Shown here in pieces: positions 9,870 through 53,122 of a stretch of 64,000 nt of DNA. The notes beneath the pieces are model-generated. The model was not told the origin of the DNA and ran no database searches. It saw nothing but the letters and a program-made list of their open reading frames with translations. The position numbers and the translations under genes are program-made. Where the stretch lies: the NCBI GenBank assembly GCA_003194525.1, contig NBIV01000116.1:62001-126000 (forward strand), written 5' to 3'. Position 1 is the stretch's first letter. Every line of letters begins with the position of its first letter. This stretch comes from Gracilariopsis chorda. Taxonomy: Eukaryota; Rhodophyta; Florideophyceae; Gracilariales; Gracilariaceae.

Positions 9870-10107
9870 GGACTGCAATTGCCCAGAGTCCGCCCTTTCT
9901 CTCGCTTGTCCCTCTCCTCTCGTTTACTCTGAGCCCCCTCGCTCCTTTTATAACACTCACACGTGGACGTTCTGTCTCCGGATATATCTTTCTGTTCCGA
10001 TCTTTCATGTATGTCAGCTATCGCGGTGCGCTGCGATCAATTCCGGCACGTGCCTTTGTTTAACTACAAAGTCCAATATCAATTCGACACATATAAGTCT
10101 CACCACA

Positions 10108-14713: not shown

Positions 14714-15013
14714 TATGGGTTGACTGGACTCCATACAAGTTACAGACGGTGAACAATACAATCAGAGCACAGTATTATGCTCAATTACCAAGAGTCCGCA
14801 CTCTCTCTCGCTTAGCCCTCTCCTCTCGTTTACTCTGAGCCTCCTTGCTCGTTTTGTAACACTCGCACGCGGCCGTGCTCCCTCCGGATATATCTTTCTG
14901 TTCCTACCTTTCATGTATGTCAGCTATTGCGGTGCGCTGCGATCAATTCCGGCGCGTGACTATGTTTAATTACAAAGTCCAATATCAATTTGACACATAT
15001 ACGTCTCATCACA
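14714..15013 (-). repeat. C2 right LTR (5' LTR)
   Basis: This is a 300-bp LTR. On the minus strand it starts TGTGATGAGACG (15013) and ends ...CAACCCATA (14714; the last CA has mutated to TA compared with CACA in the left copy). It includes GGATATATC (near 14886) as a possible promoter core. It is followed by the duplication GGTAC at 15014. Confidence 0.92.
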
Positions 15014-37089: not shown

Positions 37090-37497
37090 CAAAAAGCATG
37101 TACATACGTACTTATATCTACGTATGCCCTTCTAAACAATAATAGTTATACGTTACGTAGTGCATATGTAGGCTTCACAGTACTGGAAACGTATACACTT
37201 ATAACCGAAATAGCAATGCTTTGCATAGTGCATAGGTGGACTGCGCAGTACTGCAAACGGATACCCTTCTAAAGAAAATAGTTGCAATCTATGTAGTGCT
37301 TACGAAGGCCGCGCAGTACTGCAAAGTTATACCCTTCTAACAAAACTAGTTTTAATCTATGTAGTGCATACGGAGGCCATACAATGCTACAAACGTAGAT
37401 CTCTCTAACAAGAATAGGAATTAGCTACACGATTCATATGTAGGTAAAACCGTCCTCGATATGTACTGAGGTCTAACAGCAATACGAAATAAGAATG
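37090..37497 (+). repeat. 68-bp tandem repeat, six units
   Basis: Unit starts fall exactly 68 bp apart: 37090, 37158, 37226, 37294, 37362 and 37430. The middle units share TAGTGCATA...CAGTACTGCAAACG...ACCCTTCTAA. The outer units are more diverged, and traces continue to about 37560. No spacers or coding frame are present. Confidence 0.85.
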
Positions 37498-40575: not shown

Positions 40576-41322
40576 TGATCCGAAACGTGCTGGGAACAAA
40601 TCTTACTCAAACTATAGACAAGCGGCAGTAGCCTGTGGAATATCTATCCAGGGTAGGAAGTACGATAGGACATTTGATGAGGCAGTAGGGTACTATTCTA
40701 CTCCTTCTGAGCAGCGTTATTTGGTCTTCATTTTCTCTCAAAAAGGGGTAAATCCTAAAACGGTGATTGAAAAGCACAAAAGAGCTCTAACTGAAGATAT
40801 AACCAAGGGAAAGAGAGCACAAAGAATAGAAGAACTCCGTCGACGAATCATTGGGATTTCGGAGAGATATGGTGGTCAGCTTATCAAAAATAGTCCCTTC
40901 TTTCATCATACTGTATCAAAACTTCATCTCAGAAATTTCGAACTACAATTAACAGAGAAACAAGCCAAAATACGACGCAGCTCTTCTTTGAGGTCCACGC
41001 AAAGGTTAAAATAGTGATATGGTTATCTGAAAGAAGGCAAAAAGCACGTTTTTGACAATATAATGAGAGAAATTCAGTATCGAGAGAAACTGAGACAGTC
41101 CGAAATACTCAAAACATACGGAAGCGTATTCTTCATAAAACGACGAGCGGGGACAGAGAAGACCTATCTCCTATTTTTGCTGTACGATATTGTTGAGAAC
41201 GAAGGGCTATTTGTGCAGATAAGAGTCACGACAGGTATTGCTGCTGCATTATATGAAGGCGGAACAACTTTGCATGGCTTGGTTAGATTGAGAGGCGATG
41301 AAAACAAAGATTCGGAAAGTAG
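40544..41322 (+). pseudogene. Helitron Pif1-type helicase, left half
   Basis: YRQAAVACGI and STPSEQRYLVFIF...RALTEDI (40610-40800) match the Rep-helicase linker of Helitrons. The Walker A motif reads FFIKRRAGTEKTYLL (near 41135), with two glycines replaced. GIAAALYEGGTTLHGLV (near 41240) is the next helicase motif. The frame is cut at 41322 by G2 and resumes at 53123. Confidence 0.85.
41318..41322. repeat. G2 target-site duplication, left (AGTAG)
   Basis: AGTAG precedes the LTR start TGAAGTGCAACG and recurs at 53118-53122 after the LTR end TTGCACCACA. Joining across it restores the Helitron helicase order (motif Ia, then Walker B). Confidence 0.93.
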
Positions 41323-42148
41323 TGAAGTGCAACGCCCTCAGGGAGGGATCCTTGGTACTTGAATGCTTTCCCTATATTATCGGTTGTGTAGTGTGTATAT
41401 GAACTACGCCCCACAATGGTGGATATGGACACGTGGGACACGGTTTTGGGTTCATTGGCGGTTGGCCACAGTAGTGGATGTTGCCACGAAATGTGGAGTA
41501 TTTTTGTTGATTTTATTTATTATTTTCACACCCATTTCTGGGAAGCTAGTACTTAGTGCGACGGCGCACTGCCGTCGCACCAGTAAACCTTCCCCAACAA
41601 GGGACCCCAACCTGGGTAATTGGCTCTAGTTGTCACCGCTTGCGCGCGTGCTCTACTCCTACTTGGAGGGAAACGCCATGAACCACCGGACATCTAACCC
41701 CCTTGCGCATCTAAAGGGACCCATCACTGGGAGTCATATAATTCCAAATGCATTGGTGTTTCGCCCTGTATAGGGATAATGTTACCGGCATCGCCGTTCG
41801 CCCCCGTCGCTCTCGCGACTCACTTCGTCCTCTCTTCCTCCTCTTCGCCCTTCCTTTTTCCCCTTTTTTTGGTAGCACCTCCCGCTATCTGCGGCCCTCG
41901 TGTGCGCATCCGCTCACACACCCCCACTGGCGTGGAAACCTACCTCTGGCAAGGACGCATTCCCGCTCTCGCAGATACTGATTCTTGTCGTAAACCCTCT
42001 TGCGCTAGTCGTGGAGGGTGGCCTCGGTCTTACAAACCGACTCCGCCATGCCACCCCTAGAGGGGCTTTACCCAACTGGGTTCACCTCCACGGAGGAAAG
42101 ATCCCGAACGTCTTTCGGTGTTTTTCCCCTTTGGGGCGTTGCACCACA
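41323..42148 (+). repeat. G2 5' LTR (826 bp)
   Basis: It starts TGAAGTGCAACGCC and ends GCGTTGCACCACA. The last 125 bp consist almost entirely of adjacent short hairpins (see findings). AT-rich TTATTTATTATTTTC near 41513 may contain the promoter. Confidence 0.93.
41556..41580 (+). repeat. 10-bp stem, 5-nt loop hairpin in the G2 LTR
   Basis: GTGCGACGGC and GCCGTCGCAC surround GCACT. The same hairpin is conserved at 51605-51629 in the 3' LTR. It could act in RNA 3'-end formation or packaging. Confidence 0.7.
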
Positions 42149-42151
42149 AAG

Positions 42152-42164
42152 TGGTCTCCCGACC
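42152..42164 (+). promoter_or_regulatory. G2 primer-binding site
   Basis: TGGTCTCCCGACC, three bases after the LTR end, fits the 3' end (...GGAGACCA) of an unidentified tRNA. Its first bases pair with the LTR terminus in the hairpin ACCAC-AAA-GTGGT (42143-42155). Confidence 0.65.
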
Positions 42165-42253
42165 TAGAATCGGTTTTTGTTTTCCCTCTTATGAGGTTTG
42201 TTTTCATTCACTGGAAGGTCCGTGATCGTTTCCCGTCGTAACGGTATTCTCTC

Positions 42254-44398
42254 ATGTCGAGAAATCCCTCCGATGCGGAGCCAGTGGTTAGGCGTAGTCG
42301 CTCCCGCGAAAACGCGGACACTTCCGAAGTTCGGTTCGTACCCCGTATCCCTATACGGACAACTTCCAGCCGTGCAGGCGCCGCTTCATTGCGGAATGAT
42401 ACCCCCGACCAGGAACCCCGGAACCTCCTTTTGCCCTCGTTATCACACCCGCAGGGGAATGCAGCATCGACTCCGGCTGCTGCCGCAGTGCCCCAGGCAC
42501 CCTGGCCTGCTCACGCTGTCGCGGCTTCAAGCCCCCGTGGAACGGGCGATAACACCCCCCAGGAGACTTCCCTGGAATCCCAGGCCCACGCTCTGTGGAC
42601 CGCCAATGACATCCATGTAGGGGAACTAAAATCCCTCGAAGAGGTGGTCTTGGCAACCCCCGTAAAGGAGGTTGCCGAGGAACTCCGTATTTTAAGGTCT
42701 GACGTCAACTCCGTGGTGGAGAGTTTGGGACAACCCGCCACCTTCATCGAAGGAGTTGAAGCCCGATGTAATCGGATTGGTGCCCGCCTGGAGACGCTGG
42801 AGCAGTTCGTCCTCATGGACAAACCATCCCCCGATAATCCAGTAAACGAGGCATCGCACAACGACCAACTTGCTGGGAAGAAGAAACGCCGTCATCGATG
42901 GAAACACCACTGAAAATATTCGGACTCTGATTCTTCGACATCGTCGGACTCATCCCGAAACCATTCGGTTAGCTCGAGCTCCTCGGACTCCGACTTGGAG
43001 GACGAGAAGCGAGGCTACTTCTCCCGCTCGAAGCGGTCATCGGCCACTGAAGGTGTGATCCGAACCCCCCAGAAGGGGAGAAGACACCCTGGTCTCCGGG
43101 AATTGAAACCGACAAACCGGGATTACCGGAAGCTTTTATCATACCGGTACTACCGGCTCAACGATTCGTCACTTGGACGTACGCCCCGTGGTACGGGAAA
43201 GGTGCGAGAATGCATTAAGCGAATGCAGCTGTCGCTCCCCAACCAGTATTTTACTGGAGAGGACCCAGTCCTGGTACTGGATTTCTTATCCCGCTTTGTA
43301 GCGGAGGCCGACATCCTCGATATGAATGAGGGACAAGCCTATTTGGCTTTACCGTATTTCCTACGGGGTGTGGCGGAGGACCAATACAACTCTGTCAGAG
43401 GATCTTCCCGCGCCTCCGAGGGAGGAGATACTTGCTGGCCGGAAGCGGTGCAGTATCTACTGCGTTCCTACGCCACAAAAACCGCTATTCAGCATGCTAT
43501 CCTCGCTTTGTGAGATACACGCCAGCGTGCTGGAGAGACCGAGACCGATTACTCGGTGCGCCTTAACAAGGCTTTCCACAGATGTGGTAACGTATACCCC
43601 GCTGTGGAGCGCAGTACCACGTTCATCGATGGTCTTGACCCGGCAATCCGAAGTTTAGTTACCCGTTATCGGGAGGACAAGCGGAGGATCACCTATCTCG
43701 AGCTGGTCCAACACGCTGGAGCGGAAGGGGATGCACTTCGTGCAAGAACTCCGAACAATCGGTCTAAATCCGCCAAGGCGTTGTTGCTAGAAAGCGAAGC
43801 TTCCTCACTCTCGCTTACTGCGGATGGGAACCCTGCACAGGGATTTGATACCGTGAATTTAGTGCAGGGGGATGGTGTGTCGATACCCACCAGTGATTTG
43901 CCGTCGACGACGGAGATGACCCGTGATACGGGAACAGAAGATCCCGTTCTATACGGTGGTAACCGTCGGGTCCAACCCCAACGACTCCCGTTTTCAAACG
44001 GTCATTCCCTTTATCAACAGCCTGGATGGACTGACACCCGCCCTGCGGTTCGCTTCTCCGATACTCGGAATAATAATCCGCGTGTCGCGGTGTTGGCTCT
44101 CATTTGCCACCTTTGTTATGCCCATGGCAATACCTCGCTTCAATGTATCTGTTCATTGAAGGATATGGCCAAGGTGGTGGCAAAATACGAGGCCCTCACT
44201 CCTGAAGAGAAACGTTCCGTCCCGACGGCTTCCTACCTCATTGCTAAAACGGACTTTTCCCATGCCCTACCACAGACCCCACGTGCGCGGCAAGCTTCAT
44301 ACACCCCGACTCGGGAGATCGCGCAACCATCCGTTGCAACCCCCGCTTATGTGGATAGAAACCCCCGTCAACCGGATGAAGCACTCGTTTCCGAGTAA
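42254..44398 (+). pseudogene. G2 gag, full-length frame with two TGA stops
   Basis: ATG 42254 to TAA 44396 is one frame of 714 codons, broken only by TGA at 42911 and 43511. Residues 1-200 are Arg/Ser/Pro-rich. A Ser/Asp run (SDSDSSTSSDSS) spans residues 220-245. A capsid-like region with LPNQYFTGEDPVLVLDFLSRF follows near residue 330. A Cys/His cluster, CHLCYAHGNTSLQC, resembling a nucleocapsid zinc knuckle, lies near residue 620. Gag would coat the element RNA. Both stops could arise from CGA by one C-to-T change. Pol begins beyond the TAA in the -1 frame. Confidence 0.88.
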
Positions 44399-47300
44399 AC
44401 AAACCCACCGCCGAAGGCGGAAAAGTAACTGAGGGAGTCTCCTCTTTGGGAGAGGCGTCCTCAGACAATAGGCTGTTGACGCCCGAGGTGTCCTCGCCTC
44501 GCTCCCCGGTGAAAGTCCTCTCGAGGAAAGACACCACTGACGCGAACTCTGCGCACCTCGGTGTGTTGCGTCGCCCGTGGATACAGGGTAAAAATCGCCG
44601 GATTCCCGGTAGATTCTTGGTCTTGGCCAACCGCAATTACAAGGTCTATGCCGACTTTGGCCTTGAACCCCAGTTTATGGTGAGGTTTCTCACCGTCCTG
44701 GAAACAGGTGCCGGCCCAACTTTGTTGTGGAATCATTTTTACCCCGCTTGTGCGGTCTCGTATCCGCTCTGAAGCGGTCCCCAACATTTCGGATGCGAAC
44801 AACAATCCGTTACAAACGGTGGGCACCGTGGACCTCGTCGTAAGACTTGGTACCTCTGTGGTGAAGTTGGACTTCATCGTTTGCCGTTCATTGGCAGCAC
44901 CAGTCATACTGGGATGTGATTACTGCGACAGATTTGTCGACGCAATCAGGCCCCGCCTCAGGCGTGTAGAACTTGAAGACGGATCGTCGATTCCGATTGT
45001 TCGCCGCCCGCTAAAGCGGTCCTCTCGGAAACAAGTTCCGCTCCCTGCTGCGCAGGAACCACCGCCCGCGTCCCGCGAGTCCACCAAGCTCCGCGTCGCT
45101 GCCTCGGTTTCTATACCGGCTGAGTTCCAAGTCTGGGTGCAGGTAAATTCCCGTCAACACGGTCTTCGGGTTATACAACCCCTCGCCTCGTTGTACGAGA
45201 ATTCCCAGCTGGAGCTGGCTAATGGAATTGTCTCCACTTCCCCGGATGTTGCTTTCCGGATATTGGTTGCCAACCTTGGCAAACACCCCCAGTATCTAAT
45301 AAAACACCAAGTAATTGGGAGTGTAACCCCCCATCCTATGGGAATGCTGCCGACGAAGATGACAGCCTCCGATGTACTCGGAGTTACCACCTCTTCTGAG
45401 GAGTTCGCCCCGCCGTCCGAAAACGTCAAGTCTAAGGAGGGGAAGGAAACCGCTACTTCAGCATCGAAAATACCGAGTAACTTGGAATTGCGAACCACAC
45501 CTGTTCCACAGGACAATGCTCCATCGAGCAACGACCGGATTGATCCGCAAAAGGAACTTGAAGCGCTGGACTTCAGCCACGTGCCAGAGTCGCACCGCGA
45601 CAAACTCCGTACAATGTTACGGGAACTCACCACAATGTGGGATGGCTCGCTTGGCGAGATTAATGCAACGGAACACCGGATCGATTTAATCCCCGGTGCA
45701 CGACCGGTTGCCCAACCCCCTTACGGGGCAGGTCCGAAAGCTTGGGAAAAGGAGCAGTCCCAAGTGGACAAGATGCTCCGCGCAGATGTGATTGAGCCCG
45801 CTCAATCACCCTGGGCATCCCCAGTTGTACTGGCTTTGAAGGCCGACGGAACCTGCAGGTTCTGTGTGGACTACCGCCGGCTCAATGCCGTGAATGTCAG
45901 GGACACGTACCCTATCCCTCGTATGGACGAGTGTATTGACGCCCTCGGAGACGCCACCGTTTCCACGGCTCTCGATGCCAATTGGGGATATTGGCAAGTA
46001 CCTGTCAGACAGGAGGATCGCAACAAAACCGCATTAACCTGCCACGCAGGAACGTACCGCTTCAAGCGGATGCCATTTGAGTTAACCAACGCCCCCGCCA
46101 CCTTTCAGCGTGCAGTAGATATTCTACTCAACCGCTTTAAATGGCGGAGTTGTCTGGTCTACCTTGATGATATTATCATCTTCTCCAACTCGTTGGACGA
46201 CCATCTCACTCACGTCCGAGAAGTTTTGATCGTACTCCGCGATGCGGGGACTACCCTCAAATTGAGGAAATGCAAGTTCTTCACAGATACTGTGAAGTAT
46301 CTGGGTCACATTATCCGTCCTGGACGGTTAGCGATCGAGAAAGCTCGAGTCAAACCCCTCGTTGAGGCGAAAGAGCCCCGTACTCAGACGAAACTGCGCT
46401 CCTTTTCGGGGCTGGTCAACGTCTATCGACGGTTTATCCCGAACTTTTCGGATACCGTGGCGCCCCTGAACGCGTTGTTGCGAAAAGGGAACCCCCCAAA
46501 GCTGGGAACATTTACGCCCGAGCAATCGGAAGCCTTTAACTCCTTGAAGGAGGCTGTCACATCAGCACCAATCCTACATCTCCCAAAACTTGGTTTGCCA
46601 TACTCCGTAGATACGGACTCGAGCGACTACCGAGTCGGGTGTGCTCTTTTTCAAACCACCCCCGAGGGGGAACGACACCCAATTGGGTATTGGTCGCGCT
46701 CGCTCAATGTTCATGAGCGGAACTACTCCGTATCGGAGAAAGAGTGCCTCGCCGTCGTATGGGCGATGACCACTCTGCGCCCCTACCTTATGGGAATTCA
46801 CTTGACCGTGTACACGGATCATTCCTCATTGAGGTGGTTGATGATTATCTCCGACCCGTCGGGACGCCTCATGCGCTGGAGACTCCGCCTCGCGGAATAT
46901 GACTTTCAAGTCATTTATAAAAAAAGTGCGCAGAACACCCAGGCCGACGCTTTATCGCGGTTACCCACAAGTGGGGAAGCACTCCCAACGGAGGATGATG
47001 AAGTCCCATGCTTCATGGCTATAGACCCGGATGATCCGGAACATGCCGTCGAGGCTAGGCCAGAAACCTGGGACGAGGATGCTGATTTTGACGAACTACT
47101 CGCATCGCGAGATAAATCTGAGAACCCGTTACCGGGAAACTTTGTACTGGTATCACCGGAAGAAATGATCCGAGAACAATTTGGCGACCCATTCTGTACG
47201 AGAATTCGTGCCCGTATCAACGGTGGTGAAGATCTCCCTTTCGGGGTAAACGACAAAGGCTACCTCGTAAGAAAGGTCGAAGCCCGCCCACAGATTGTGG

Positions 47301-48474
47301 TACCACATTCCCTGCAATCGCGGGTGTTACATCTATCACACTACGCCCCCATTGGAGGTCACCCAGGTGGGAGGAAACTCTACCTAACCCTGCGAAGGGA
47401 TTTCTATTGGCCCGCAATGGCGGTGGATTGCTACGCAACTGTGCGGTTTTGTAGCGAATGCGCGAAGAATCGCGTCAAACTCCGCAAAAATGCGAAGAAG
47501 ATGAAACTATTCCCCGCAAGGGCGCCGCTCGAGTTTATTGCGATCGATATTCTCGGACCATTACTCACCACGAAACGTGGAAACAAGTTTCTACTTGTCA
47601 TTACCGACCGCTTTTCTAAGCTGGTACAGACTGTCCCTCTTCGGAGGATAACCACTCTCACGGTGGCCCAGGCTCTGGTGACGCACTGGATTTTTGTCTA
47701 CGGTCCCCCTGTAGAGGTGCTCTCTGACAACGGGAAGTAGTTCGTAAGCAAGTTCTTCCAGGATGTTTGTCGCATCCTGGATGTCAAGAACTTGTTCACG
47801 ACTACCTACCACCCCCAGTGTAATGGGCAAGTTGAAGGGTTTAACCGGACGTTACTCGCGGCGTTACGTTCCTACGTCGCTGACCACCCAACGAATTGGG
47901 ATCTCTACGCTGATGCGGTAACCTACGCGTACAATACGCAGGTACACCGGACTACCGGAGTTTCGCCATTCGAGTTAGTTCTATCTAGAACACCCCCGCC
48001 TGTGGCGCTGGAACCCCAAGCTACCTTGGACAATTTCCCATCTGTGGGTATCTACCGGCAGCAATGGAAGCAATGGCTTTCAAAGCTGGTCCCCGCTGCG
48101 CGAGAGTCAATGGCACGTGCGCAAGCCACGTACAAGCGGGATTTTGATGCTCGCTTGCGAGGGAAACCGTCCACGATTCGGGCGATTAACTACGTCTTCA
48201 TCAGGAAGGAGTACTACAACCCGGAACGGGAGGAGTACCATAAACTCTCGCCTGTGGCGGATGACCATTCAAGGTCATCTCCGTGAACACCGACACTGTC
48301 GTGGTAGAGATGGGCGACACGCACGAACGGATTTCCCGTGATCGTGTTGTCGTTGCCCCTCCTCCCTCGTCAGAGGTAGTCCTGGATCCAGGCAACCCCG
48401 TTTCTACGGACTCTGCAACACCGGAATCATCCGGGAGTACTACCCCTACGGTACTACCACACCCCAGCCGGTGA
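44399..48474 (+). pseudogene. G2 pol: protease, RT, RNase H, integrase with GPF module
   Basis: Protease starts in frame 1: TVLETGAGPTLLW (near 44695; DTG has become ETG). It then shifts near 44745-44765 into a 990-codon open frame. RT: LPYGAGPK-like PPYGAGPKAWEK (45715), RFCVDYRRLNAV, STALDANWGYWQV, RMPFELTNAPATFQ, YLDDIIIFS (near 46160). RNase H: SVDTDSSDYRVGCALF (46605), YTDHSSLRW. Integrase: HxnH-CxxC zinc finger (HLSHYAPIGGH...CSEC, 47330-47460), FIAIDILGP, LSDNGK-stop-FVSKFF (TAG 47738), NGQVEGFNRT. A frameshift near 48262 precedes GPFKVISV and HERISRDRVV. All catalytic residues except the protease Asp remain. Confidence 0.93.
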
Positions 48475-48570
48475 ATCTCAGACCTACCGACCCTGTAGGA
48501 CTGACCGGCTCAGCCGGGTAATTCGGGCCTCTCAGCACCCACCTCTACCACGCCCGCCCCCCTGGCGCGA

Positions 48571-49280
48571 ATGTACACCCGCCAGGCGGGGAATGTTCTC
48601 CCTTACCCCGCCGCTCCGTCTAAGGAGGGGGAGGAGAACACTCGTTTTCGAGGAACGATATCGCCGTCGCAACGGGAAACACACCGTAACATACGGAACA
48701 CTGACCGTGGAGCACGGCGTATGTCACGCTACACTAATTCTCCGTTCCGGGGCAGTGCTGTGCAACAGGAACCAGACGTGCAGGCCCCACAAAAGCAACA
48801 AATACACCGTTTGTCACGGGAAAACGAAAAGCCACCCTCCAATACCGCGAAAGCGGAAACGACCCTGCCCCAATGGGGAATGACTTGGCGGTGAAAACCA
48901 TGACGCCAAACACCCTCTTGAGGGGTATCCTCCCGCACGGGCAGTGGCCGCTACCACAGCGCGCGGCAACGCCGGAGTTATCGCCGAACAACCTGCTAAG
49001 GGACATTATACCGCACCGCGGGCAACCCTCACAAGGGAGTACAACCACCACCCGGCACGGCCGGCAGGTCTACGAACGAGAGTTCGTAGTAGACCGACTT
49101 GTCGGACACACCTGGGACCAGGATGTTATTCTACAATACCGCGTCCGCTGGTACGGGTATGACCCCAATGGGGATACGTGGGGGCCAATCGAACACCTCC
49201 CACGGTCGCAGGTCGTGCGATACCACCGTCAAACGGTAACCGCAGCCCACGATACGTTCAGTAATGCCCAGGTTTGGTAA
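48571..49280 (+). pseudogene. G2 pol C-terminus with chromodomain
   Basis: After a Pro/Ser-rich linker (48571-48890, frame 1) the frame shifts to one ending at TAA 49278. Its last 75 residues are a chromodomain: YEREFVVDRLV, then YRVRWYGYDPNGDTWGPIEHL. The aromatic residues at the cage positions (Tyr, Trp, Tyr) are kept. In chromoviruses this domain follows the integrase and directs insertion to marked chromatin. That fits a G2 inserted in heterochromatin-like transposon DNA. Confidence 0.88.
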
Positions 49281-49469
49281 CGTTGCCGTGCGAGCGGAGG
49301 GCGATAGGAAAGGATAACAAGGCAAGGTCCGTCGAGGACGGGGAACTCAAACGAGAATCACCGTTCTAAATGGGAAAGTTTATTCAGGGGAGCAGCTAGC
49401 TCCCCACACACTATACTACACTAGCTGGCTATGCCAGGAAAGAAGAACCAGGGAACTGGACTAGAGGTT

Positions 49470-51317
49470 TCACTCACCCCCATCTTCTGGGGCGTAACCA
49501 CCAGCGAGGCGGTAGGCCAACGCGTCCGCCATAGTGGTAACATCCCCCGATACCTCGGCAGCGCTCAGACCGGCACCCCGGAGAAAACGTGCGATGATCT
49601 CGTTTTCATTCGCTGTCACCCCGCCGGGGATAGAAGATCCGGCACTTGCCGCGGAAGGGTCAGCAGCCGGCTGTGCCGGAGATACCCCCTCTGGGAACGC
49701 TTCCGCGCTAGCGCCGGTTTCCTCTACGTCCATCTGCCCGGGTTCTTCCGGTTCGTTATGGACCACTGGGTCATCCCCGCCGTATGCGCGGTTGTATTCG
49801 TCAGAATCGACGTACCCCACTGGGTGGTCTTCCGGCACATGCCGGGGCGCATAGCGAAGCTCGCGCACCTCCTCGGAGGAAATTTCCCGGAACTCCCAGG
49901 GGTCGAAGTAGATAAAATCCCCCGAAAGGGCGGTGTTTCTACCCAGTCCCGGACCACCGGTGTTACTGCTGCCGCCATCCAGACGACCGCTTTGCTCCAG
50001 CGGGACCTCACTCCAGCTAACGCTGTCAATGTACCCAAGTAATTGGAGGACCTCTTCATTGTTGGCCTGGCCCCCAAGGGGGATGCGAAGATCCAAATTG
50101 CGGATCGCTGCCCGCACACGCCATGGGGGGAACCAGAGACGAAACTGGTCCTACGCCTCGTTGAGGATATAAGCCGCAGCGCGGGCCGCCCACTCCGTAA
50201 CCAATACGGACCACAACTCCGACCGGGGATCCTGCATGAGCAGCGAACCGAGGTACTTAAGTACCGGCGGGAGTTCTATGTAGCACCACCGGCAGGCTTC
50301 ATGGAAGCGCCACCACTCGGGGAGTGCTACATACCGACCTAGTCGGTGCGGTGGCGCAATCCGCTCTATCTCCACGTTCTGATACGGGATGAAATACCAG
50401 AATCGGGATCGCCAACGCCGCTCATAGCGGATGAAGTTTTGGAGAAAGTTGGACCGGTATTGCCGGGGAAGATACCTGAACTCCGCCCGAATAATCAGTC
50501 GCTCCCAACAAAGGGCTTCTTGCCGCGCTGCGGGGAAATTCCTCCAAGCGAGGATCTTGAGGCGGAACAGGTTGTCGCCGTAGCAAATCTCCCCGCAAGT
50601 GCGAAAGTGGCTAACGTCGAAGCCAAACTCCGGTGGGACCGGTACATCGAATGGAGCCCGGCTCTGCCGTTGGTATGCCATGCGCGTCAACGCGGTCTGC
50701 GCCGCAGCGACGGCCTTGCCCGAATACCTTTGGAGGTGGTGATGCAGAATCGCAATCCGGTGACGCCAATCCCACGATGTGGTGGCTGCTCTGGGAAGAT
50801 ACCCCGGAAGGGTGTCTGAGCCATCCGCATAAGCGGTGACCAATCCCTCATTGAGGAGAGCGACTGGTTGAAACCAAGGGGCAAGGCGCATGCGCGACGC
50901 ATGATTCCGATTCATCGGGTTGAGCCCCACCAGGGTGTTGTAGGTTGGCCAGTTGGACGCCGGAGCGGTTCCGGAGGATCCCGCCGAAGGTAGTAGTGCG
51001 AAGGGATAGTCGGCTGCAGCACCCAAATTTCCCGGTTGTACCGGATGTTGATCGCCCTGAGGCAGGGGAACTGACCGCAAACCGGTCTTGTATCGCCCGA
51101 CAGACCTCGGAGGTTGGCTTTTGTTGTTGATGTTGTTGTCGTTGTTCATTTCTCCCTCTTCGAGGGTGGTTGTTGTTGTTTGCCGGAGTGCGCTCGGTGA
51201 CGAGGTAGTGCAAAGGCGAGGCGGGGAAATACCAGCTGCAGTAGCATGGGGTAGTGCCTCTGATGCCGAGGAGTTTACCGGAGAAAGGGAGACGGCGCAC
51301 GCGCTTTTATCACCCAT
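49470..51317 (-). CDS. G2 antisense ORF, 616 codons with one internal TAG
   Basis: Opposite to pol, between the chromodomain and the 3' LTR, a frame runs from ATG 51317 to TGA-type stop 49470. The only interruption is TAG 50151, plausibly from CAG. Residues 1-90 are Ser/Pro/Asn-rich. Residues 180-400 are rich in Arg, Trp, Tyr and Phe (YRSNFLQNFIRYERRWRSRF) and look like a folded basic, perhaps nucleic-acid-binding domain. The last 160 residues are acidic and Gly-rich. I recognise no family. The start lies 54 bp from the 3' LTR, so that LTR may supply an antisense promoter. Antisense ORFs in this position are known in some plant gypsy elements. Confidence 0.7.
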
Positions 51318-51360
51318 TTTCGTCTGGGAATCCTCCACGTCCGCGGTCGTTTTCCCGTTT

Positions 51361-51371
51361 TAGGGGGGATA
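51361..51371 (+). promoter_or_regulatory. G2 polypurine tract
   Basis: TAGGGGGGATA abuts the 3' LTR start TGAAGTGCAACG. Confidence 0.8.
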
Positions 51372-53117
51372 TGAAGTGCAACGCCCTCAGGGAGGGATTC
51401 TTGGTACTTGAATGCTTTCCCTATATTATCGGTTGTGTAGTGTGTATATGAACTACGCCCCGCAATGGTGGATGTGGACACGTCGGACACGGTTTTGGGT
51501 TCATTGGCGGTTGGCCACAGTAGTGGATGTTGCCACGAAATGTGGAGTATTTTTGTTGATTTTATTTATTAATTTCACACCCATTTCTGGGAAGCTAGTA
51601 CTTAGTGCGACGGCGCACTGCCGTCGCACCAGTAAACCTTCCCCAACAAGGGACCCCAACCTCGGGAATTGGCTCTAGTTGTTACCGCTTGGGCGCGTGC
51701 TCTACTCCTCCTTGGAGGGAACCACCGTGAACCACAGGACATCTCACCCCCTTGCACATCTAAAGGGACCCATAACTGGGAGTCATATAATTCCAATTGC
51801 ATTGGTATTTCGCCCTGTATGTGGTGCAATCCCGGTGTGGGAAAGGCACCCAAGGCAGCTCGAAGCCTTGCTCTCTTGGAGAGGTAGGCCCAGCTGGGTA
51901 GAGCCCTCCGTGTCCCGTATGACGGGTGTAACTCCGTCGGGAGCCTGGATGTACCTCGGAGGTTTAGGGGTTAGAACGGGTCGGAACCACGGCTGGTACG
52001 GAAGTAGCCTGCGAGCAGGGGAACAAAAGAGGGAAAGGGACCACCAGACGGGGGCGTGCGGAAAGCGGGAACAGACCCCGGAGGAGGGTGCCGATACACA
52101 CGCACGAACACGCACCGCGCGGCGGTTAGGGGATATGAGGGGAAGAGATGGTCTCACGGTCTCACGACACACGACGGTAATATCAATACCCAAAACTGGG
52201 GCGGAGATAGGGCCTGTACGGGCGGTCACACGACAACAATGAATACCACGAGTGGTCACAACCCACTGGGTACGACGAGCACGGTCTCCTCGGTGGTGCG
52301 AGTCGGGTGAAACTACCGGGCAAGCGGTGTACCTCCGCGATGAGTTAGACATTTCGCATGGCGAATAGAGTCAGAGCCGAACTCGGTTTTCTTTTCTTAG
52401 TGAGCTCGCCGTCGTGCGGCCGACGCTCAAGTACTAGGTCAGTGCAGTACAGTAGGTAGTGCACTAGCCTAAGTAAAAAATTAACCCCTAAACTACAATA
52501 AAATAAGTAGCCATTTTGGGCCTTCCTGGCCGGGGCTGTAGCCACGTGTCCACCACCCTTGCCAGGCAACTACCACAAAATATGAATGTTCCCATAACCA
52601 CCCTGGGTAACCCGACCGCTAATTAGCCCGGTAAACGGGGGCTAAAATTCATGCATCCCGCTTCATCGCTCGCACCGAGTACACCTCAGATATGAGTTTC
52701 ACCATCGCCCGTACGCGGGAATGTATTGCACTACACTGTATAGGGATATTGTTACCGGCATCGCCGTTCGTCCCCGTCGCTCTTGCGACTCACTTCGTCC
52801 TCTCTTCCTCCTCTTCGCCCTTCCTTTTCCCCTTTTTAAGGTAGCATCTCCCGCTATCCGCGGCCCTCGTGTGCGCATCCGCTCATACATCCCCACTTAC
52901 GTGGAAACCTACCTCTGGCGAGGACGCATTCCGGCTCTCGCGGATACCGATTCTTGTCCTAAACCCTCTTGCGCTAGTCGCGAAGGGTGGCCTCGGTCTT
53001 ACAAACCGGCTCCGCCGTGCCACCCCTGGAGGGGCTCTACCCAACTGGGTTCACCTCCACGGAGGAAAGATCCTGAACGTCTTTCGGTGTTTCTCCCCTT
53101 TGGGGCGTTGCACCACA
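51372..53117 (+). repeat. G2 3' LTR, enlarged by a nested solo LTR
   Basis: It matches the 5' LTR at 51372-51819 and 52741-53117, together the same length as the 5' copy to within 1 bp. The 921 bp between (insert plus one duplication) are absent from the 5' copy. Confidence 0.93.
51820..52735. mobile_element. Solo LTR (916 bp) inside the G2 3' LTR
   Basis: The insert begins TGTGGTGCAAT and ends ATTGCACTACA (11-bp imperfect inverted ends, TG...CA). It is flanked by CTGTA at 51815-51819 and 52736-52740, whereas the 5' LTR has CTGTA once. A 5-bp duplication with TG...CA ends and no coding capacity indicates a solo LTR left by recombination. It also shows the dense short palindromes of G2 (CCCAGCTGGG, GCTAATTAGC, CCCGTATGACGGG). 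The alternative is a non-autonomous TIR transposon with a 5-bp duplication. Confidence 0.85.
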
Positions 53118-53122
53118 AGTAG
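53118..53122. repeat. G2 target-site duplication, right (AGTAG)
   Basis: This copy pairs with 41318-41322. Confidence 0.93.

Follow-up and report, generated by a model that had tools for sequence, protein, structure and literature searches.

The stretch of DNA analysed here, referred to as the window, comprises 64,000 nucleotides (nt) of the red alga Gracilariopsis chorda (assembly GCA_003194525.1, contig NBIV01000116.1, positions 62,001 to 126,000 of the forward strand), and it contains at 41323–53117 a long terminal repeat (LTR) retrotransposon of the gypsy/chromovirus group, called G2 in the following, which is densely filled with small perfect hairpins. G2 is one insertion, flanked at both ends by the target-site duplication AGTAG (41318–41322 and 53118–53122, plus strand). 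On the plus strand, the 5′ LTR (TGAAGTG...CACCACA) extends over 41323–42148, with dense hairpins in its last approximately 150 bp only, and it is followed by a probable primer-binding site (PBS; 42152–42173), which begins with TGG after the LTR and contains a hairpin at 42159–42173 that probably resembles the complement of a tRNA T-arm. The gag region (42254–44398, plus strand) carries stops in the window copy, leaving open reading frames (ORFs) at 42254–42913, 42995–43513, and 43556–44398. The pol ORF (44708–47740, plus strand) matches the Pfam families RVT_1, RT_RNaseH, RT_RNaseH_2, and Integrase_H2C2, as well as rve below the cut-off; over the cut-off in G2 are PF00078, PF17917, PF17919, PF17921, and PF00385, and PF00665 reaches 21.2 bits in the cut pol ORF compared to a cut-off of 32.6. 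A Pfam search with the ORF 47792–48286, which lies in the same frame as pol, gave no match, and the chromodomain (PF00385) is encoded in the window copy by a separate ORF downstream of pol (48873–49280, plus strand). An antisense ORF (49470–51338, minus strand), split in the window copy into 49470–50117 and 50151–51338, adjoins the 3′ LTR. A preliminary description of this sequence had reported a solo LTR here; this is G2's own 3′ LTR, divided into two plus-strand parts (51372–51820 and 52736–53117) by an insertion of approximately 915 bp (51821–52735), in which a mild hairpin excess of its own was observed (9 vs. 3.9, z 2.6). The two LTRs of the window copy are 95.8% identical across 449 bp and 93.5% across 383 bp. 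By its order of reverse transcriptase (RT), RNase H, and integrase, its C-terminal chromodomain, its TG...CA LTRs, the target-site duplication, and the probable PBS, G2 is an element of the Ty3/gypsy chromovirus type.

In the genome searched (G000; 91.3 Mb in 1081 contigs), at least 131 places match the RT piece of G2, the window's own counted. The family moved recently, since the LTRs of the copy on contig C23 are 99.9% identical across 806 bp and its gag and antisense frames are open, over 728 and 609 codons, respectively. The C23 gag contains a CX2CX4HX4C zinc knuckle, which in the window copy is present without its histidine. The G2 pol product matches a database protein named Agarophyton chilense at 64% across 75% of the query. 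For the antisense-ORF protein, three database relatives with 38–58% identity were found, Gracilariopsis chorda BWQ96_03215 being among the names, and the match named Gracilariopsis chorda is at 50% across 96%; a Pfam search of this protein gave no match at 0.001 (best 0.098), and a structure predicted from four sequences was of no use (mean pLDDT 31.6). The antisense ORF was also seen at L077:1747–3573.

All 19 perfect inverted repeats listed in the preliminary description were found at their coordinates, two of them having stems of 4 bp only (42126–42136 and 42159–42173) and two being palindromes with a loop of 0 (46677–46688 and 46806–46817). Between 43200 and 43600 about eight had been counted, and a recount yielded 13 centres (stem ≥5, loop 2–5, overlapping ones included). 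In the five 2-kb bins of 42001–52000 there are 54, 48, 44, 37, and 38 inverted repeats (stem ≥5, loop 0–8) compared to means of 16.6, 16.2, 13.2, 16.0, and 15.6 in dinucleotide shuffles (z 4.8 to 8.9), and the remaining 27 of the 32 window bins have z values of −1.6 to 2.8. Codon-preserving shuffles, which had been named as the test beforehand, gave for the pol ORF a mean of 13.8 and a maximum of 23 among 300, and the observed number of 61 exceeds them clearly (z 13.3). One might suspect an artefact of base or codon composition, as the GC content of G2 (0.52–0.59 in the same bins) is above that of most of the window; this explanation is ruled out by the dinucleotide and the codon shuffles, and the gypsy loci L074, L085, L086, and L087, of similar or higher GC content, are moreover without excess.

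Counted per segment (perfect inverted repeats, stem ≥5, loop 1–5), the density amounts to 19.4/kb in gag-pol (z 18.1), 15.2/kb in 48287–49469, 15.0/kb in the antisense-ORF region (z 5.7), 25.3/kb at the LTR end (4 in 158 bp), 0 in the 105 bp of the PBS/5′ untranslated region, and 11.1 and 10.5/kb in the two parts of the 3′ LTR. The array had been described as spanning the whole element, which holds for gag, pol, and the antisense region but not for the beginning of the 5′ LTR (41323–41990), whose density of 6.0/kb (4 in 668 bp, z 1.2) is close to that of the background. The array extends over 41991–51338, mostly with stems of 4–5 bp, loops of 3–5 nt, and often a CC...GG foot, and covers sense-coding, antisense-ORF, and LTR-end sequence alike. 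The rest of the window has 4.2–5.1/kb compared to 15–19/kb in gag-pol and the 3′ region: left of G2 the density is 5.1/kb, a mild excess (210 vs. 173.2 shuffled, z 2.8), and right of G2 4.2/kb (z −0.4). If non-overlapping hairpins with stems ≥4 and loops of 3–5 are counted in 42001–51372, 263 are found, which corresponds to 28/kb and 36% of the sequence, compared to 105 hairpins and 15% coverage in one background stretch.

The excess belongs to one size class with stems of 4–5 bp, loops of 3–5 nt, and a span of 11–14 nt. It is seen at loops of 1–5, and none is seen for stems ≥5 with loop 0 (12 vs. 12.2 per 10 kb), among which those with a 6-bp stem are somewhat elevated (5.8 vs. 2.2). Compared between gag-pol and the left side of the window, the numbers per 10 kb are 55.1 vs. 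4.9 for stem 5 loop 3, 14.5 vs. 2.0 for stem 6 loop 1, 24.6 vs. 6.1 for stem 5 loop 2, and 69.6 vs. 25.4 for stem 4 loop 4. Loops of 10–29 show no excess in G2 pol (z 1.0 and −0.2, codon shuffles). Triloop stems tend to end at 5 bp, only 7 of 67 going further where 25% are expected (p 0.0025), and tetraloop stems have no such limit (8/36). The foot is mostly 5′-CC...GG-3′ and has a polarity: complementary inner pairs were counted in 108 of the 387 frames with CC...GG and in 5 of the 254 with GG...CC, the latter being no excess. Of the 56 hairpins in the stem-5 loop-3 class, 24, 21, and 15 have an AT pair at the first, second, and third inner position, respectively. Among the 212 hairpins of the window with a C foot (211 gaps), gaps of 4–14 nt are over-represented (81 vs. 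56.7 at random), gaps of ≤3 nt are depleted (9 vs. 22.8), 54 exceed 40 nt, and hairpin centres lie 20–23 nt apart 2.1–2.4 times more often than by chance. The local folding energy in 31 windows of 150 nt is below that of shuffles on both strands (mean z −1.26 plus, −1.17 minus; background −0.31 and −0.73). Short linkers are A-rich relative to T in some sense-coding parts (p 0.008 in the G2 copy L064, 0.035 in C23 gag, and 0.0003 in the related locus L071), and A-richness is not clear in the window gag-pol (p 0.32), the C23 LTR (0.10), and the antisense-ORF region (0.77, 0.30). A 3′-flanking A had been considered as a strand mark and was dropped, because GG is followed by A at 0.28–0.44 anywhere in G2.

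The array is carried by few elements. Eight loci of the G2 family, including the window copy, have 21.7–24.5/kb, and 29 of 30 loci found via RT_RNaseH, many of them copies of one family, have 3.9–7.5/kb. The exception, L037 with 10.6/kb, belongs to a sister family which is 70.7% identical to G2 in pol and has 12.2–13.2/kb in four of four stretches, one of them overlapping L037; three other stretches fetched alongside have 3.6–6.8/kb. In codon-preserving shuffles, L064 (76 vs. 17.8, z 14.2) and the sister-family locus L071 (61 vs. 21.4, z 8.3) stand out, and four of four other gypsy loci show no excess (z −0.7 to 0.8). The same is true for 13 of 13 other gypsy loci in dinucleotide shuffles at loops 1–5 (z −0.5 to 1.9), among which L032 reaches z 2.6 at loops 1 and 3. 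The foot polarity recurs in the sister family (29 of 119 CC...GG frames vs. 2 of 89 GG...CC). A more distant relative, L078, lies on a contig of a metagenome-assembled genome (MAG), its pol being 48.6% identical to that of G2 across 426 residues; it holds 52 inverted repeats vs. 18.0 (z 8.1), with loops of 1 and 3 dominating, and its two ORFs exceed codon shuffles with z 4.1–4.3 and 6.8. Of the seven other matching MAG contigs, the six examined all have z −0.3 to 2.0, and two scans of viral contigs yielded no relatives. Among the loci tested, the trait is limited to one clade consisting of the G2 family, its sister, and L078.

Several further observations were made alongside. The MAG in question, g2_MAG_00002, is labelled Robiginitomaculum sp. 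(a bacterium) and holds several eukaryotic-type gypsy contigs (L078–L089), so that it appears contaminated, perhaps from an algal host. Another gypsy family (G000:C190, C529 at two places, C920, and C938; five equal-score rows) shares one TAG in the part matching RNase H, flanked by long frames if translation is continued past stops; this shared stop possibly reflects readthrough or a common lesion. Copies of another gypsy family on G000:C573, C819, C883, and others lie on one strand with a spacing of approximately 5.68 kb, as is seen in tandem arrays. In the window left of G2, a direct repeat pair of 232 bp (9876–10107 and 14782–15013; 89% identical, 4.9 kb apart) possibly represents the LTRs of another element, a tandem repeat with 68-bp units (71–76% matches) lies at 37120–37417, and in the background count of 1–41300 a perfect inverted repeat was met whose arms measure 26 bp and whose loop is a single nucleotide.

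To which extent the stems pair by Watson-Crick rules was judged from internal positions of stems with one mismatch, in sets of which those from the window, L064, and C23 are homologous and not independent. In CC...GG frames, G.T vs. A.C mismatches number 7 vs. 9 in gag-pol, 4 vs. 2 in the 3′ region, 1 vs. 2 in L071, 5 vs. 1 in L064, and 2 vs. 3 and 2 vs. 2 in the C23 ends. With any foot, the numbers are 27 vs. 13 in the window gag-pol, 4 vs. 7 in the 3′ region, 17 vs. 22 in the C23 ends, 11 vs. 10 in L064, and 11 vs. 12 in L071; L078 has 11 vs. 16. Stem changes between two subfamilies of G2 (A and B) leading to G.U and A.C are in a ratio of 8:4 among fixed differences and 3:8 among singletons, and in a larger set of G2-sister comparisons with one side changed, 28 G.U stand against 56 A.C (controls 33 vs. 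46; p 0.33). The pairing is Watson-Crick, and G.T mismatches are overall no commoner than A.C, with one set leaning toward G.T.

The hairpins appear to be maintained by selection. Divergence was compared in a 3.9-kb piece between 20 copies of subfamily A and 8 of subfamily B, a difference being regarded as fixed if each subfamily set was at least 80% in agreement; the comparison did not include L001–L008, L040, or the window copy L039, stems were defined on L064, and the copies L064, L065, and L066, which lie on two short contigs, are possibly partly redundant. At third codon positions, fixed differences occur at 15 of 290 stem sites and 133 of 946 other sites (p 2e-5; loops 5/64), i.e., stem sites diverge 2.7 times less, and singletons are equally frequent (11/290 vs. 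36/946, p 1.0; loops 2). Control stems with loops of 8–27 have 19 of 177 fixed differences vs. 109 of 878 at other sites, and stems defined on L047 instead have 22 of 290 vs. 124 of 945. L064 and L047 share 70 of 82 hairpins at 6.7% divergence. Compared to random placement of the same changes, fixed differences cause fewer hairpin losses (24 vs. 48.2 and 22 vs. 51.2 expected) and about the expected gains (20 vs. 15.8, and 14 vs. 15.7 in the other direction). Singletons yield 1 gain vs. 5.6 expected in A and, in B, 6 gains vs. 8.6 and 27 losses vs. 30.8. Since hairpin loss is avoided and hairpin gain is unbiased, maintenance by selection fits better than biased or templated mutation. The preliminary description had raised the idea that template switching during reverse transcription mends imperfect palindromes into perfect ones. 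Such a process, acting by fold-back, would yield Watson-Crick stems whether or not the DNA is coding, and some both-sided changes are present. Between G2 and its sister, the pairing was kept by changes on both sides in 22 of 516 pair cells, and in controls in 6 of 414 (p 0.012; some cells belong to more than one hairpin, as hairpins overlap). With a looser definition, G2 and L071 have 26 dyads in common between 90 and 54 hairpins, and in 7 of these 26 dyads, by reading of the list, both partners of a pair have changed; a binomial p for the shared dyads was set aside, as it takes no account of general sequence conservation. However, new and fixed mutations create no hairpins clearly above chance, their gains being near or below the random expectation, no compensated pair was found in the shared hairpins of 14 copies compared to L064, and the CC...GG preference is not accounted for, all of which makes templated mutation very improbable.

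We suggest, with a rough probability of 0.38, that the hairpins are repeated binding sites in a single-stranded intermediate of the element, most likely read by its own Gag zinc-knuckle nucleocapsid. The hairpins would act in the genomic RNA, in the complementary DNA (cDNA), or in both, and through such binding the element's nucleic acid would be recognised, brought to a regular spacing, and packaged into virus-like particles. A protein reader on the single strand is suggested by the near-uniform size, the preferred foot, the mostly free inner pairs, and the wide cover; it would account for the greater weight of the foot relative to the inner pairs and for a distant relative with the same hairpin size but without the CC foot. 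The both-sided changes between G2 and its sister that keep the pairing, together with the reduced divergence of stem sites, also speak for this reading. The antisense-ORF protein is a second candidate reader. A broader formulation, which we put forward tentatively and regard as doubtful, is a structural code laid over the genes, in which a co-evolving protein encoded by the element reads, on both RNA and cDNA, some 20–30 near-uniform Watson-Crick mini-hairpins per kb, often approximately 20–22 nt apart and with a foot that can vary between lineages. Several observations weigh against recognition sites read by Gag. Gag itself is a guess among candidates, and the loops of G2 have no evident shared motif. 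The CC foot is a preference and not a rule: inner pairing is also raised with CT, CG, and AC feet (17/102, 25/198, and 13/103), the background leans in the same direction (CC 18/311, GG 6/336), and L078 lacks the CC foot (3 of 81 CC frames vs. 8 of 77 GG frames) and has in addition an excess of long loops (loops 10–29: 95 vs. 64.2, z 3.9; first ORF z 4.6). A G.U advantage is absent in most sets, which would not be expected of an RNA site and equally suggests the cDNA or both strands. As to selection, the contrast between fixed differences and singletons is at p 0.027 for third positions and at 0.15 for all codon positions, and singletons of subfamily A also cause fewer losses than expected (12 vs. 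21.8). Moreover, the majority of hairpins are not conserved from G2 to its sister: third positions of L064 and L075 are 47% identical, and only 8 of 60 and 10 of 35 hairpins are still fully paired in the other (controls 3/40 and 2/39).

Other functions of the array have to be weighed against protein binding. The hairpins might need no dedicated reader and might serve, in single-stranded cDNA alone or in RNA as well, to compact the strand or shield it from nucleases or deaminases. The lack of a consistent G.T advantage is what a constraint on DNA or on two strands predicts, and among the observations it points most strongly to a role of the cDNA or of both strands; in addition, most of the element is covered, and short loops of 3–4 nt would suit DNA hairpins according to energy rules. 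Stability alone, however, leaves the preference for CC...GG over GG...CC unexplained, and the stem-5 loop-3 class clearly favours GC at one inner position only, so that we consider this explanation rather unlikely. Evasion of RNA silencing, in which hairpins on both strands would render small RNAs and their targets self-structured with stems too short for Dicer, likewise predicts pairing on both strands and hence no G.U advantage, and it would agree with the end of triloop stems at 5 bp and with the spacing near 20–22 nt. It accounts neither for the CC foot nor for tetraloop stems without a length limit, and other gypsy families, exposed to the same silencing in the same genome, lack the array; we regard it as unlikely. 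The preliminary description had also offered selection for a heavily folded RNA, of which the selection is supported by the reduced stem divergence, while general folding fits poorly with one size class, no consistent G.U gain, and the CC...GG polarity. If selection acted on how the sense RNA folds in bulk, this would be in line with the lowered local folding energies, with the reduced third-position divergence of stems, and with the 27 G.T vs. 13 A.C stems of the window gag-pol, but the excess in G2 is confined to short loops, the other sets are without a wobble advantage, and folding of the plus and minus strands hardly differs. Bulk folding is quite unlikely as well, and the array looks more like recognition sites.

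If binding sites in a single-stranded intermediate are indeed what is maintained, much of the freedom that an LTR retrotransposon has at silent sites is used, over approximately one third of its sequence, for one repeated hairpin design of 11–14 nt. A cis signal of this kind, spread over a whole genome, would be new, and it would make it feasible to study how a Gag distinguishes its own nucleic acid from others. Furthermore, silent sites in mobile elements may then bear strong structural constraint, by which dating and dN/dS (the ratio of non-synonymous to synonymous substitution rates) would be biased for such families.

Compared to known systems, G2 resembles chromovirus-type Ty3/gypsy elements in its LTRs, PBS, knuckle-bearing gag, RT, RNase H, integrase, and chromodomain, and it departs from them by the hairpin array and by the antisense ORF of approximately 609 codons beside the 3′ LTR. 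No account of such an array in LTR retrotransposons was found among open-licence papers searched by title and opening lines of the abstract. Quasipalindrome-templated mutation is known to perfect inverted repeats; G2 differs in showing no clear mutational bias toward gain. Genome-scale ordered RNA structure (GORS) of RNA viruses is a genome-wide structure paid for by silent sites, and the folding energy of G2, modestly below controls over the 31 windows, is reminiscent of it. However, the hairpins of G2 are local, with a span of 11–14 nt, a CC...GG preference, and no consistent wobble advantage, and the general pairing of the GORS type, with varied loops and G.U pairs, was not found, as only short loops are in excess and G.U is in most sets no commoner than A.C, the exceptions for G.U being the window gag-pol (27 vs. 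13) and L064 (5 vs. 1). Together with GORS, the nearest parallel is provided by the dispersed packaging signals of single-stranded RNA viruses, for which many stem-loops distributed over the genome are described with a proposed common feature for coat-protein recognition (PMC6281560). G2 differs from these viruses in being an LTR retrotransposon, with Watson-Crick pairing and 20–30 hairpins/kb, and its common feature consists of foot and size without an evident loop motif, unlike in the MS2 example (PMC6281560). The CC...GG foot is found in G2 and its sister, no motif is evident in the loops, and L078 has no CC foot. As in packaging signals, G2 has many stem-loops throughout the element which appear to be under selection.

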